Assembly (NCBI GenBank): GCA_016788885.1
Contig: JAEURX010000075.1
Location: 62,001 to 126,000, forward strand
Direction: 5' to 3'
DNA from: Nitrospira sp.
GTDB lineage: Bacteria > Nitrospirota > Nitrospiria > Nitrospirales > Nitrospiraceae
DNA length: 64,000 bases
The notes below the pieces were generated by a model that did no database searches, had not been told where the DNA came from, and saw only the letters and a program-made list of their open reading frames with translations. This document shows, in pieces, positions 34,407-40,316 of this stretch. Made by a program: the position numbers and the translations under genes. Positions within the stretch are counted from its first letter, which is position 1; the number at the start of each line of letters is the position of its first letter.

Positions 34407-34528
34407 CGGTCGGCACGTGTGCGAACGAAACCGGGCGGCGCGGTGACGGGCGAGGCGTGATAAGCCGGTTCAGTCATCGACAGGCACGATCTGGCGCTGC
34501 CGCCCGGCAAGGCTTGAAAGGAGAGCGG

Positions 34529-35509
34529 ATGAAACGTGTCCTGACCGGCATCCTCCTGCTGTGCGGACTCCTGACATCGCCGCTTGCCGGTGCGGCTAAT
34601 CCCACCGCTGAACATCTGCAATGGGGACGCTGGAGCTTTGACTATGAGGTTCGGGACAACACCGGCCTGGCGCTCAGAAACGTGACCTATGACGGGGAGC
34701 TCGTCCTCGGCAAAGCCAGCATGCCGGTCCTGCGCGTCAAATATGTGAAGGAACGCATCTGGTGGAATCCCTTCACGTGGTTCGGATCCCGCGCCGACAG
34801 CGGGCGCTGCGGCCCATTCCAGGATCGACTGCGCTGGCAGGACCTGGTCCCCATCGTCAACTGTGGCAACAATACAGTCTGTGTTGAAAGCTCCACGCTG
34901 AACGGGACCAAGTGGCTTGAACTCGGCATCTATGCGCGTATTGGGGAGTACCACATTTACCAGTCCTGGCATCTGTCCGACGACGGAGAACTTCGCCCGA
35001 TTGTTCAAAGCCGCGGACTCTCCTGCAATACCGACCACATCCACCACCCCTACTGGCGCTTTGACTTCGACATCGATGGCAACGGTATGGACCAGGTCTT
35101 TGCTCATGACGACGGGGGAACCGATCATGGCTGGGGCCCCGGATGGACGAAATATACGAACGAACGTAACGACGTGAAAGTCTCCGCCACCCACCGGACC
35201 TGGTTCATTCGTGATCAACTCACCGGTCACGGCGTCTGGCTCCTTCCTGGAGAAGGGTACGCGCCCCTCAAAGGCGACGGAGAACGAGATGACTTCGCCG
35301 ACCATGATGTTGCCATCCGGCGTGCCAATCCGGACGAAGACCTACCCTGGGTGTTTGGGGCACGCGGACAACTGGGCTATGACCAGGACAACCAGAGCGT
35401 GCAAGAGCAGGACGTCGTGGTCTGGTATGTGGCTCATCTTCCACACATGGCTGCCCTTGGCCCGACGAAATGGCTGACCCTTGGGCCAACCCTCAAAATT
35501 CAACGCTGA
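34529..35509 (+). CDS. exported short copper amine oxidase-like catalytic protein
   Basis: 326 residues from the ATG at 34529, after a strong AAAGGAGAG. A signal peptide (about 1-22) precedes a domain aligning with copper amine oxidase D4. The matching segments are GLALRNVTYDGELVL; ADSGRCG with possible base D90; IGEYHIYQSWHLSDDGEL with Y141 at the topaquinone position; HIHHPYWRFDFDIDG with H170 and H172 as copper ligands; and VVVWYVAHLPH with H306 as third ligand. The Tyr motif is EYH instead of NYD/E, so cofactor formation may be altered. At about 300 mature residues it is half the usual length; D2/D3-like modules lie in the preceding lipoprotein. It would oxidise primary amines to aldehydes, if active. 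Confidence 0.6.
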   Translation: MKRVLTGILLLCGLLTSPLAGAANPTAEHLQWGRWSFDYEVRDNTGLALRNVTYDGELVLGKASMPVLRVKYVKERIWWNPFTWFGSRADSGRCGPFQDRLRWQDLVPIVNCGNNTVCVESSTLNGTKWLELGIYARIGEYHIYQSWHLSDDGELRPIVQSRGLSCNTDHIHHPYWRFDFDIDGNGMDQVFAHDDGGTDHGWGPGWTKYTNERNDVKVSATHRTWFIRDQLTGHGVWLLPGEGYAPLKGDGERDDFADHDVAIRRANPDEDLPWVFGARGQLGYDQDNQSVQEQDVVVWYVAHLPHMAALGPTKWLTLGPTLKIQR

Positions 35510-35760: not shown

Positions 35761-36558
35761 ATGAATCAGCCGGGATTTTCTACAAAGGAATTCCAACAAC
35801 TCGGCGAAATCATGCACGACGCTCGCTCCGTCAATCGAAGCGAAGGCGTCTGGAAACTCGTATCGGCTGTCCAGCACGTTATTCCCTATGAATTTTCGGG
35901 ATGCGGAGGAGTGGATCTTCTCCGTGGAGTCGATCCGGCGCTTGGGCACTCGACCTATCCGAGGGAGTTCTGCCAGCTCTACATGGGCCAGGGATTGGCG
36001 GCAGACCCTGCCGTATACCGGCTGATCACCTCCGGGCAGTCCGTCACATCCAGTGCCGACGAACCCGCCTTCACCGAGCCGAAAGACATCAGCGCCCTCA
36101 AGCTGGATTTCGGCATTAAGACGTGCCTGTCGGCCGGGGTACGCGGGGAACAGGGGACCTGCTCCTACTTTGCCTTCAGCAACTTCGACGCCAAGCACGC
36201 AGACAAACTCCGGCTACTGCTCGATATTCTCACCCCGCATTTTCACTTAAGCTACATGCGGTGCAGCTCAACGTGGAAGCCTGAGCGACCGGCTCACCCG
36301 ACAATTCTGTTGAGTAAACGGGAAGAAGAGATCCTCCGTTGGGTCGCGGCGGGCAAGACCAACTGGGAGATTTCTGTCATCCTCAAAGTTAGTTTGAATA
36401 CGGTGAAGTTCCACCTCAAAAATATTTTCCAAAAAATCGGGGTCGAAAACCGCTGGAGTGCCATCGCCTACTGGCAGACCGGCGAGCAACATCGGCTCAT
36501 TTCCTCTTCGCCTCCCAGTGACGATCGTTCACCGTCCGATTCCAATCGCGCGGAGTAA
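35761..36558 (+). CDS. LuxR-type transcriptional regulator, no LuxI partner nearby
   Basis: 265 residues. An N-terminal autoinducer-binding-like domain (about 1-170) precedes a LuxR helix-turn-helix (about 182-245: LSKREEEILRWVAAGKTNWEIS and NTVKFHLKNIFQKIG). In the ligand domain the DP pair (D82-P83) and nearby Tyr are kept, but the two pocket tryptophans of acyl-homoserine-lactone receptors are not seen at the expected places. It may therefore bind a different ligand. The next two genes encode a nitroreductase-like protein and a ketosynthase, obvious candidates for its targets. CGGAGAG precedes the start. Confidence 0.85.
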   Translation: MNQPGFSTKEFQQLGEIMHDARSVNRSEGVWKLVSAVQHVIPYEFSGCGGVDLLRGVDPALGHSTYPREFCQLYMGQGLAADPAVYRLITSGQSVTSSADEPAFTEPKDISALKLDFGIKTCLSAGVRGEQGTCSYFAFSNFDAKHADKLRLLLDILTPHFHLSYMRCSSTWKPERPAHPTILLSKREEEILRWVAAGKTNWEISVILKVSLNTVKFHLKNIFQKIGVENRWSAIAYWQTGEQHRLISSSPPSDDRSPSDSNRAE

Positions 36559-36627
36559 ATAAGACAACACCTGCCGCATCGAGAGCCGCTGTTGTTTTCG
36601 CACGATATCTCAGGACTACGCTCTCGC

Positions 36628-36643
36628 CTACCCCGATGGGTAG
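36628..36643. promoter_or_regulatory. palindrome resembling a NarL/LuxR-type operator
   Basis: CTACCCCGATGGGTAG has arms CTACCC/GGGTAG around CGAT. On the minus strand it reads TACCCAT then CGGGGTA, near the NarL heptamer consensus TACYYMT. It lies 133 bases before the nitroreductase-like gene, in the 217-bp gap downstream of the LuxR gene. Confidence 0.35.
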
Positions 36644-36734
36644 GTGACTGCAACCTACACCTCTCGTAGAGTCAGCCCAGTCAACACCACGCCCCTTGAT
36701 GGCGTGCCAGTACCACCGCTATCCACATGACCGG

Positions 36735-36777
36735 ATAGGGCCTAACGGCCCTAGGCAACCGGAAGGAGAGGCCCTAT
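36735..36777 (+). promoter_or_regulatory. mutually exclusive hairpins over the 36776 start codon
   Basis: ATAGGGCC (36735-36742) can pair with GGCCCTA (36747-36753) in a compact hairpin. It can also pair, by 8 bases, with GGCCCTAT (36770-36777), which includes the A and U of the start codon and abuts the Shine-Dalgarno GGAAGGAGAG (36761-36770). The two pairings exclude each other, so the leader could switch translation on and off. Confidence 0.45.
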
Positions 36778-38047
36778 GAAGCAGCTCGCTACACAGTCTG
36801 CAGCAATGGACGCCACATTCACCCTGTTAGACCTCCTGCAACAGCGAAAAACCCGTCGCTTCGGCCTTGGGATGACGCTGCCGAGTGGCCCGCTCCAATA
36901 CACCAGTCATCATGAGCCGGTTCCGCTGAGTCAGGAAGAAGAACGGTATTTGATTTATGCGGCGATCGGGCGATCGGGACGGAATCTGGGTGATATGCAC
37001 TTCGTCGGGAAGCCCGGCTCGAGCGAGGGGCAAGGAAACGCCTTGATGAATTTCCGAAGCCGCACCGTTCCCAGTCCGTGCTCCGCACAGACCACGCAGT
37101 TGTTTTACACGAACGACGAGGGCGTCTTCTTTGTGGCCGATGCCGCCAGCGCCGACCACTCCTGGGACCTGGACATCGTCCAACTCCAGCCCTCCCGGCT
37201 CGAGATCCCGCGTGAAGTGCCGTTCATGTTGCCGTTCAACCAATGGTATACAAACCGGCCCGGTACCACGCTCTTCTTTCCCGTCACCAATATCGCCTTA
37301 CTCTACCTGAATCTGCTCCTGATGATGTTCAGCGAGGACACCGGATATTTCATCGTCGATACCGACCATGGCAATGCCGGCTGCGGCCTGGACGCCTTCC
37401 GCAAGAGCGCGGGCGGACACCTGCATGACGATATCCGGGCACGCCGAATGTTCAGCTTGCGGGAACTCGACGCGGCGATTTGCGAAACGGCGATTCAGGA
37501 GCAAGGCATCATCTGCGAACACATTTCCTTGATGCAGCAGGCGCTGGGGCTTGGCGGCGGCATCCAGAGCGTGGGAAGCGGACGGCATCTCCTGGGCCTC
37601 GAGCCGCACATCTATCCGGGGCTGGGCTTCCAGTTCGTCGTCCCGCCCGGCAAGCCGATGCGGGCAAATCCGGTCGGCATCCCGGGCGTGTGGGAAGGCC
37701 CCATGCCACCCTTCGTAGCCTCGATGAAAGAGGCTGTCACTCGGCTGGTCGACAGCAAGTTCGGGCCGAATGGCACCTTCAGGAAGCCTCACGAGCAGAC
37801 CTGGGTCAGACCCGGATCGGCACAACAGGTTCCGGAACATTCCGCACGCGCCGTCGACGCCACCATCGCGTTTACCGAATATGTCCTCGCCACCTATGGG
37901 CGCTTCCCGGCGCACGCCGATGCCTGCAAGTCCGTCGTGGCCTGCCAGACGCATCACCTGGACGAAGATTTTTATGCGACGTTCTATCCCGACTCCGCCT
38001 TGCCGGACGCACATCGTGAGCACATGCATGCATGGCATTCCCATTGA
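36776..38047 (+). CDS. nitroreductase-like protein
   Basis: 423 residues. The N-terminus has the nitroreductase-like opening LLQQRKTRRFGLGM and LSQEEERYLIYAAIGRSGRNLGDMHF. The C-terminal half carries EQGIICEHISLMQQALGLGG, like the conserved helix near the FMN site. The protein is twice the usual single-domain length, as in fused or two-domain members. No signal peptide. It probably binds FMN and carries out an oxidation or reduction on a carrier-bound or small substrate, but no close relative is recognised. It stands 41 bases upstream of the ketosynthase gene in the same operon. Confidence 0.55.
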   Translation: MKQLATQSAAMDATFTLLDLLQQRKTRRFGLGMTLPSGPLQYTSHHEPVPLSQEEERYLIYAAIGRSGRNLGDMHFVGKPGSSEGQGNALMNFRSRTVPSPCSAQTTQLFYTNDEGVFFVADAASADHSWDLDIVQLQPSRLEIPREVPFMLPFNQWYTNRPGTTLFFPVTNIALLYLNLLLMMFSEDTGYFIVDTDHGNAGCGLDAFRKSAGGHLHDDIRARRMFSLRELDAAICETAIQEQGIICEHISLMQQALGLGGGIQSVGSGRHLLGLEPHIYPGLGFQFVVPPGKPMRANPVGIPGVWEGPMPPFVASMKEAVTRLVDSKFGPNGTFRKPHEQTWVRPGSAQQVPEHSARAVDATIAFTEYVLATYGRFPAHADACKSVVACQTHHLDEDFYATFYPDSALPDAHREHMHAWHSH

Positions 38048-38088
38048 CGACATACTTTTTCACGCTCTTACGAGCACAGGAGGGCATC

Positions 38089-39414
38089 ATGACACCACAG
38101 ACCTCTCGTCGAGTCGTCATCACCGGCATGGGAGTTATTTCCCCCTTGGGTTGTACCGTCGATCTCTTTTGGCACCTGTTGAGCCGGGGAGACAGCGCGG
38201 TGAAGCCGATCACCTCATTTGACACCTCTCCCTTTCAGGCCTGTCTCGCGGCCGAGGTGCAGGATTTCGATCCCGAGGACTTTTTGCATCGTAAACAGGC
38301 CCGGCGCATGGGACGGGCGACTCAGTTCGCGGTGGCCTGTGCCATGATGGCGACACGTGATTCCGGGATCGACCTGGAACAGGAGGATCGCGGCACCATC
38401 GGTATCAGCATCGGCACCTCCATCGGCGGCATGAAAGAAGCGTTTGAGTTTCATGACGCAGCCAAGCTGAACGCCTACGAGCGAGTCAATCCCTTTACCA
38501 TGGGTATGACCTTTCCGAATGCGATCTCTTCGGAAGTGGCCATCGTCCTGGGGTTGCATGGTCCCTGCGAGACCTATTCCATCGGCTGTTCCTCAACGGC
38601 CAATGCCATCGGACGCGCCTATGAATGGATCAAGTCGGGACAATCTTCCCTGGTCGTGGCGGGGGGGACGGAAGCGCCCCTTCATCCGAGTGTGTACGCC
38701 GCCATGAACGCCGGTCGGGCACTGGCACCGGACGAGCACGGCACAATCCGGAATCTTCCCCGCCCCTTCGACAAGACCCGGTGCGGCATGGTGCTGGGCG
38801 AAGGAGCGGGCTGTTTTATCCTTGAGGACTACGAGCATGCCCGCGCCCGCGGCGCCAAAATGTATGCCGAACTGGAAGGGTGGGGCTTCACCTGTGACGC
38901 CCACTCGATGGTCAAAGCCGCCTGCACCGGGCAAGAGCAACAACGGGCCGCCCGGCTGGCACTCTCAACCGCCCACTGGTTCCCCGAAGAAGTGGACTAC
39001 GTGAACGCCTGCGGCCTCGGCACCATGGAATTGGATGCGATCGAAACACAGACGGTGAAGCAGGTCTTGGGCGACCATGCCTATCGAGTGCCCGTCAGCT
39101 CGTTCAAAGCGGCACTTGGCCATGCCTTCGCCGCCAGCGGAGCCTTCCAACTCATCGGAACCGCGAAGGCGATGGAACACCAATTCATCCCACCCACGCT
39201 GAATTTGACCACTCCGGACCCGAACTGCGATCTGGATTATGTTTCGGGAACCGGGCGCGTAGCGCACGTCAATCGCGCGCTGATCAATAGCTTTGGATTC
39301 GGCGGCAAGAATATTGTGCTGGCACTCTCACGTGTGAACCTCGGCGCCGCCGGTACCGGTTCGATGAAAGCCGCACCGGCGTACGGCATGAATCAATTGG
39401 TTGGAGTATCCTAG
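38089..39414 (+). CDS. FabF-like beta-ketoacyl synthase with Cys-Cys-His site
   Basis: 441 residues from the ATG at 38089, which has AGGAGG upstream. KS domains join acyl units by decarboxylative Claisen condensation. The nucleophile C167 sits in SIGCSSTANA and the distal His is H345 in AALGHAFAASGA. The first His, normally in VNAHGTGT, is replaced by Cys: C308 (tgc at 39010-39012) in VNACGLGTMELDAIE. FabF numbering of Cys, His, His (163, 303, 340) fits well. No ACP, AT or other PKS module is in the window. The change could alter decarboxylation and so the product or role; together with the nitroreductase it suggests a small-molecule pathway. Confidence 0.85.
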   Translation: MTPQTSRRVVITGMGVISPLGCTVDLFWHLLSRGDSAVKPITSFDTSPFQACLAAEVQDFDPEDFLHRKQARRMGRATQFAVACAMMATRDSGIDLEQEDRGTIGISIGTSIGGMKEAFEFHDAAKLNAYERVNPFTMGMTFPNAISSEVAIVLGLHGPCETYSIGCSSTANAIGRAYEWIKSGQSSLVVAGGTEAPLHPSVYAAMNAGRALAPDEHGTIRNLPRPFDKTRCGMVLGEGAGCFILEDYEHARARGAKMYAELEGWGFTCDAHSMVKAACTGQEQQRAARLALSTAHWFPEEVDYVNACGLGTMELDAIETQTVKQVLGDHAYRVPVSSFKAALGHAFAASGAFQLIGTAKAMEHQFIPPTLNLTTPDPNCDLDYVSGTGRVAHVNRALINSFGFGGKNIVLALSRVNLGAAGTGSMKAAPAYGMNQLVGVS

Positions 39415-39659
39415 GATAATCACATGAGTGACCGGCGTCACTGCAGTAGAGGCATCGACCGCGCGTCCGCTGATGCGGCCTCCCCCGTGTGGAGCGAGGC
39501 CGCATCGGGACCGTGTAACCCCGTGTATGAACCGGCACGAGGAGGGTGGAGACCGGCCGTTGTGCGCCTCGTCACCATTATCGAAGGTGACCCGACGCAT
39601 CGGCGGAAATATCGAGCACCATCACAAGACATCCATCCACATTTATGAGAGAGTCGACC

Positions 39660-40316
39660 ATGAACGAACTAGAACACACCACCACACGGGTGTTTGTCAT
39701 CAACCCTCAAGAACTGGTCAGAGTCGGCATGCGAACACTACTGAACTCTGTCCCCGATTTCCGCATCGTCGGAGAAGCGCCCTCGCGAGAGGAGGCACTG
39801 CCGTTGGTGCTTCAGCACCAACCAGACATTGTCATCGTCGATCTCCGCGTACAGGACGGAACCGGCATCGAAACCGCCAAGGAAATCCTGTCCCATCTTC
39901 CGGCTACTCGCTTGCTGTTTCTTGCCGACACCCTCAACGACACCATTCTCCTCTCTGCCGTGGCAACTGGAGCCCACGGATATGTCCTGCAGGACGCCGG
40001 CGCCGAAACCCTGATGCACGCGCTACGCAGCATCACCAAGGGACAGGCCTATCTTGATCCGGGCGTCACCCGCCACACCTTTGCCTATCTCCGCAAAGTG
40101 GCGGATCGTGAACCTGAGCGGGGCCGCCATCTGTTGTCTCCACAGGAAAGACGCCTCCTCCCCCTTATTGCACAGGGAAAGACGAATAAGGAAATCGCCG
40201 CCGAACTCGGGTTGAGTGACAAAACCGTCAAGAACTATCTCGCCAACGTCTACTCCAAACTCCATCTCACCAGGAGGTCTCAAGCCGCCGCGTTTTACCT
40301 CAAAACAATCCCTTAG
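39660..40316 (+). CDS. atypical NarL-type response regulator
   Basis: 218 residues from the ATG at 39660 (a Met five residues earlier is possible). A receiver domain (about 8-125) precedes a LuxR helix-turn-helix (about 155-215: LSPQERRLLPLIAQGKTNKEIAAELGLSDKTVKNYLANVYSKL). The putative phospho-acceptor D61 is present, but the acidic pair that binds magnesium is replaced by N15-P16 and the conserved Lys by Q111. It may therefore act without phosphorylation. The HTH half is very close to that of the canonical regulator at 53725-54405. It lies between the ketosynthase gene and a giant kinase. Confidence 0.88.
   Translation: MNELEHTTTRVFVINPQELVRVGMRTLLNSVPDFRIVGEAPSREEALPLVLQHQPDIVIVDLRVQDGTGIETAKEILSHLPATRLLFLADTLNDTILLSAVATGAHGYVLQDAGAETLMHALRSITKGQAYLDPGVTRHTFAYLRKVADREPERGRHLLSPQERRLLPLIAQGKTNKEIAAELGLSDKTVKNYLANVYSKLHLTRRSQAAAFYLKTIP

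Follow-up and report, generated by a model that had tools for sequence, protein, structure and literature searches.

Three adjacent genes of a Nitrospira genome, coding for a LuxR-type regulator, a 423-aa protein of an unnamed family and a FabF-derived ketosynthase, probably constitute, together with a predicted operator, a unit in which a LuxR solo serves as the dedicated switch of a small acyl-modifying operon, a reading to which we assign, on sequence evidence, a probability of about 0.6. The regulatory unit formed by the LuxR protein, the operator and the two-enzyme operon would be the firm result of this computational analysis and is put forward with high confidence; an acyl-related chemistry of the cassette is favored at somewhat better than even odds. 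The genes lie in a window (the whole stretch of DNA that was analyzed, 64,000 nucleotides) most closely related to lineage I Nitrospira, among them Candidatus N. defluvii, and the source genome (3.9 Mb) is 99.8% complete.

Three genes and one predicted operator

The LuxR-type regulator (265 aa; 35761-36558), the 423-aa protein (36776-38047) and the ketosynthase (38089-39414; its open reading frame opens at 38032, with the likely start, preceded by a ribosome-binding site, at 38089) are all encoded on the + strand by real genes, not by chance open reading frames. The original prediction had grouped them within the interval 36776-39414, and they are found there with the LuxR gene lying just outside it. 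The same order occurs in 15/15 other related Nitrospira records found, and dN/dS values of 0.04-0.08 for all three genes indicate purifying selection. A survey of 295 Nitrospirota genomes gave 25 Nitrospiraceae with a close orthologue of the 423-aa protein, and in every orthologous neighborhood retrieved the LuxR gene is upstream and the ketosynthase gene directly downstream. Conserved synteny, proposed at the outset as a check, thus extends across at least four genera of the family, and homologues of the two enzymes, whose scattering would have spoken against a common unit, always occur together within the orthologous group. The operon is carried by 23 of 24 good-quality genomes of its own genus. 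In lineage I the cassette is part of a longer syntenic stretch with uvrC; in other genera, where identity to the LuxR, the 423-aa protein and the ketosynthase is 47-54%, 53-59% and 65-70%, respectively, the flanking genes differ and the three genes remain together. One record labelled uncultured Nitrosospira (L004, NOB2) bears the Nitrospira locus at 84-89% identity and is apparently mislabelled.

The LuxR gene is followed, ahead of the two enzyme genes, by a predicted LuxR binding site, a 20-bp inverted repeat at 36626-36645 (GCCTACCC-CGAT-GGGTAGGT). The consensus of this box is RCCTACCC-N4-GGGTAGGT, within which is a perfect 7+7 inverted repeat (CCTACCC-N4-GGGTAGG), usually extended to RCCTACCCN4GGGTAGGT. 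Its 7-bp arms do not vary from genus to genus, even where the intergenic DNA around them looks unrelated, and its 4-bp core is variable (CGAT, CGAC, GGCC, GGGT, ATCC, TTCC, GTTC among others), as expected for a protein-binding site. Exactly 21 bp after the operator stands a -10-like hexamer, TAGAGT (36667-36672, + strand); TAnnnT is found at 21 bp from the box in 28/29 loci and at 22 bp in the remaining one, against an expected frequency of ~1% per position. If the hexamer is a -10 element, the center of the box would lie at about -43 from the predicted transcription start, a class II position for a lux box.

The distribution of the box follows that of the operon. In a pattern search of the source genome it was the sole site, even when up to 2 mismatches were allowed, and each genome of the genus that has the box has it once only. 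Across 79 Nitrospiraceae, the exact box is present at the operon in 24 of the 25 operon-bearing genomes, the sole exception (G167) having a degenerate one, and in 0/54 genomes devoid of the operon. Position, co-occurrence and the form of the box are the basis on which the LuxR protein is assigned to this predicted site, and the LuxR regulon appears to be one operon. The operator ties the LuxR gene to both enzyme genes far more tightly than could be seen when the three were first noticed. As a first step of the proposed mechanism, the LuxR protein would bind the palindrome and activate the two-enzyme operon from the class II position, a step strongly supported by sequence.

No literature was found on a palindrome of the RCCTACCC type. 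The exact palindrome also occurs in two genomes of another Nitrospirota family (G005 and G015; L172, L173), with three copies in G015 and no cassette LuxR in the stretch fetched, so that the palindrome alone is not diagnostic. In a further genome of another Nitrospirota family (G178; L174 4236-5946), the same 20-bp box is flanked by a LuxR-like gene (29% identical) and a gene for a C1-peptidase-like protein, a like arrangement of the switch with different cargo. The 5′ leader (36673-36778) contains two GC-rich hairpin-like stretches, the second of which repeats AGGCCCTATG around the start codon; a conserved leader hairpin was dropped as a candidate, as the consensus fold comprised 3 pairs only, with negligible covariation.

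The cassette had originally been described as lacking the usual biosynthetic partners. No ACP gene lies beside it in the window; relatives, however, add a P450, a FadL-type porin and, once, LuxI with a canonical LuxR. A P450 gene is divergent from the cassette in L054, L059, L062 and L176 and downstream of it in L056 and L057, a gene for a FadL-type outer-membrane protein is nearby in L056, L062 and L063, and L062 has LuxI and a second, canonical LuxR within 6 kb. These neighbors make an acyl-derived product more likely. Among the 29 loci compared, a second TAnnnT at 21 bp on the opposite side of the box was observed in 3/3 with a divergent P450 and in 1/26 others. Scanning the genus for the box followed by 21 bp and TAnnnT turned up one additional genome in which the box is two-sided (G339) and for which a divergent P450 was predicted and then found, 83% identical to the L054 enzyme. 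In the genomes with a divergent P450, one box thus appears to drive both the P450 gene and the enzyme operon. A P450 of the source genome was considered as a missing pathway partner and was not counted, since it is 25-28% identical to the cassette P450s and has no box.

The two enzymes and the question of lipid metabolism

The expectation of a FabF-like synthase was borne out. The ketosynthase scores 428 bits to PRK07314 and 434 bits to TIGR03150, the latter below the TIGR03150 cut-off, and its best matches are FabF-type, which sets it apart from the FabH-derived head-to-head ketosynthases of the PpyS/OleA type. All 15 cassette ketosynthases of 15 form one clade with a support of 100/100 and a long stem, outside the vertical FabF clade and apart from both the housekeeping FabF and the second mono-domain ketosynthase of the same genomes. 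Clustering with housekeeping FabF, which the original prediction had named as evidence against it, was hence not observed. In the window protein (residues counted from the Met at 38089), Cys167 and His345 are retained and the first His is replaced by Cys308; more generally, the Lys and the second His are retained along with the catalytic Cys in the cassette enzymes, and the position of the first His, His303 in E. coli FabF, is occupied by Cys in 15/15 of them and by His in every other aligned Nitrospirota ketosynthase. The resemblance to FabF (beta-ketoacyl-ACP synthase II) therefore consists of ~430 bits to TIGR03150 and a common catalytic Cys and second His, whereas the active site reads Cys-Cys-His instead of Cys-His-His and the clade is distinct from the FabF of the same genomes. 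In FabF, both His hold the substrate carbonyl (PMC7138838). From general ketosynthase enzymology, loss of the first His would be expected to impair malonyl decarboxylation, and a Cys in its place makes normal malonyl-decarboxylating elongation unlikely. PqsBC, which acts in alkylquinolone signal synthesis, is likewise a condensing enzyme with an altered catalytic set and converts an acyl thioester into a signal precursor (PMC4807248); however, it is a FabH-like heterodimer in which Asn is replaced by Val, whereas the cassette enzyme is FabF-type.

The 423-aa protein is more elusive. Alone it matched no Pfam, NCBIfam or PDB entry, the PDB sequence search giving antibody noise only. A family-wide alignment that included homologues from Rhizobium, Rhodobacter, Nonomuraea and a haloarchaeon gave remote similarity to nitroreductase/SagB-type flavoproteins: PF00881 picks up 10 of the 22 family members (best E 0.0034, below the gathering score, the window protein itself giving no match), and the SagB/ThcOx model TIGR03605 picks up 5 of 22 (best E 0.0052, below the curated score). 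The matches of the family profile to the PDB, headed by a flavin reductase (E 0.021) and albonoursin synthase (E 0.036), are weak; an hhalign comparison of the family with real nitroreductases gave P 0.0011, vs. 0.14 for an unrelated control profile. The similarity resides in an RRxxRxF start and an N..L...ALGLG motif, and an AlphaFold model built with 16 close orthologues reached a pLDDT of 30. The protein had been regarded as a double-length nitroreductase. Of that label there stands a remote resemblance of the family, weak yet recurrent, to the nitroreductase superfamily and notably to its SagB and albonoursin-synthase branches. The resemblance falls below every curated cut-off, the single sequence gave no match, and the length is due to a long insert and a C-terminal extension of ~130 aa, with no evident duplication. 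No precursor-peptide gene was noticed in the open reading frames neighboring the cassette. The protein marks a family without a curated model. Its distant homologues were not seen beside a ketosynthase. The Rhizobium relatives (L050 5104-9362; L051 2777-9311) follow a 948-aa catalase-like/animal-haem-peroxidase fusion, an oxylipin-type context, and in some lineage I genomes (L067 8986-12971) a 35-37% paralogue lies beside genes for a ChrR-cupin anti-sigma factor and a sigma factor, with no box.

For the two enzymes, the switch reading would imply the following chemistry. The ketosynthase may accept, at Cys167, an acyl chain delivered by the ACP of the cell and then transfer that chain, or join it to an atypical partner, instead of elongating it. 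The nitroreductase/SagB-like protein, along with the P450 where present, might subsequently oxidize the product, which is the weakest step of the scheme.

The same enzymes could instead serve lipid homeostasis by remodelling fatty acids or membrane lipids, with the LuxR protein sensing an internal fatty-acid or redox state and no signal being made. The FabF ancestry of the ketosynthase, the FadL-type porin and P450 genes adjoining the cassette in relatives, and the peroxidase fusion, an oxylipin-type enzyme, beside the rhizobial homologues would all be in keeping with such a role. Yet a single-operon regulon and a Cys-for-His ketosynthase suit a specialized product better than bulk lipid synthesis, and the operon is missing from most genera of Nitrospiraceae and is thus not essential to lipid synthesis. 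Lipid homeostasis is a minority explanation, although the likeliest of the rivals to the switch reading.

The LuxR solo and its putative ligand

The regulator contains an Autoind_bind domain (29 bits in Pfam) and a GerE helix-turn-helix domain, and among PDB entries it is similar to CviR, RhlR and LasR. Its pocket was compared with that of AHL receptors at W57, Y61, D70, P71, W85 and G113 (TraR numbering; PMC4414361, PMC10134790). The motif of the window protein is F-Y-D-P-S-G, vs. the canonical W-Y-D-P-W-G: across the cassette LuxRs, W57 is F, H or L and W85 is S or T, while Y61, D70, P71 and G113 are retained. Both Trp are replaced in every cassette LuxR, whereas canonical Nitrospira LuxRs adjoining LuxI keep both. 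LuxI (PF00765) is absent from the source genome and from 19/19 genomes of the genus, and it is missing in 22 of 25 operon-bearing genomes tested, including 3 of the 6 from other genera. In a LuxI-bearing genome, the cassette LuxR still lacks both Trp and a separate canonical LuxR has the full motif. The altered ligand pocket and the lack of LuxI had both been anticipated from the window, and both are sustained across the genus. In short, of the hallmarks of an AHL LuxI/LuxR system the cassette has a class II lux-box-like palindrome, without LuxI and without the six-residue pocket, and it shares with non-AHL LuxR solos of the PluR/PauR kind the Autoind_bind and GerE domains, the lack of LuxI and an altered pocket with Y61 and D70.

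Since both lactone-contacting Trp are lost and LuxI is lacking, the ligand is probably not an ordinary acyl-homoserine lactone. As a second step of the switch reading, it may be an acyl-type or other small hydrophobic molecule, either endogenous or environmental. A different account takes the LuxR solo to detect AHLs produced by neighbors and then to switch the operon on. A 2025 survey found LuxR without LuxI in lineage I Nitrospira and left foreign-AHL sensing as an open question (PMC12342949); 4 of the 6 pocket residues are retained, and LuxI with a canonical LuxR lies within 6 kb of the cassette in one relative. Such eavesdropping is nonetheless unlikely, given that no cassette LuxR retains W57 or W85, even in the LuxI-bearing genome, and that most operon-bearing genomes tested have no LuxI at all. 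Finally, that the genes are neighbors without a shared pathway, their synteny inherited and the two enzymes acting separately, is very improbable. In its favor, the 423-aa protein has distant homologues with no ketosynthase alongside, and uvrC and other surrounding genes are likewise syntenic in lineage I; against it, the three genes stay together where other neighbors change, and the two enzyme genes, which in several genomes abut or overlap, sit behind a common box and promoter.

Related systems and possible meaning

The dedicated LuxR-solo switch favored here has its nearest known logic in the PluR/PpyS (photopyrone) and PauR/DarABC (dialkylresorcinol) systems of Photorhabdus. There too, an altered-pocket LuxR solo retains Y61 and D70 and the ligand comes from an unusual ketosynthase, not from LuxI (PMC4414361, PMC4578411), and the cassette ketosynthase is also unusual. 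In PluR and PauR this Tyr and Asp are retained and essential, and other pocket residues differ (PMC4414361). On the other hand, the pocket motifs of PluR/PauR are TYDQCS/TYDQYI, vs. FYDPSG in the cassette; PpyS evolved from a FabH-type ketosynthase, whereas the cassette enzyme is FabF-type; and PluR and PauR activate a separate clumping operon, whereas the cassette box precedes the ketosynthase operon. As ketosynthase type, pocket and target all differ, the cassette is not counted as a member of this group. The NspI/NspR1 AHL quorum-sensing system belongs to the same bacterial group and also involves a LuxR-family regulator and a lux-box-like site (PMC8553950), but the genus of the cassette has no LuxI, its palindrome differs from the reported lux box and its AHL pocket is incomplete. 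Like QscR, which adjoins phenazine genes, and other solos, the cassette LuxR lies next to the operon that it is thought to control (PMC10134790); QscR, however, senses AHLs, whereas the cassette LuxR has an altered pocket and a regulon of apparently one operon.

The operon product could possibly be the LuxR ligand itself, which would close an autoinduction loop. On this basis, a second, LuxI-independent form of cell-to-cell signaling in Nitrospira, with a new class of acyl-derived signal made by the Cys-Cys-His ketosynthase, the putative flavoprotein and sometimes the P450 of the cassette, and with its own non-AHL LuxR amplifying synthesis through the box, is a tentative and rather unlikely extension of the switch reading. 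No literature was found on such an operon in Nitrospira. These bacteria are the chief nitrite oxidizers of soils, water and treatment plants, and for one lineage I LuxR there are now a specific predicted operator, one putative target operon and a chemistry that lends itself to testing; were the product indeed a signal, the nitrogen cycle would gain a non-AHL signal of a new class.

Several features around the cassette may be recorded in their own right. One genome (G153; L171 1-3153) carries the cassette a second time; this copy, which has a box of its own, is truncated by a contig end, and a LuxI fragment lies at the other end. Upstream of the LuxR gene, and preceding it across lineage I, is a gene (34475-35509, + strand) for a 344-aa protein that matches copper amine oxidase in part (37 bits). 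After the operon comes a gene for a NarL-type response regulator (39645-40316, + strand), with lineage I orthologues of 80-96% identity at the same place; read by eye, its receiver domain keeps the phospho-Asp, its acid pair is N-P, and Ala and Gln stand at the usual Thr/Ser and Lys positions.
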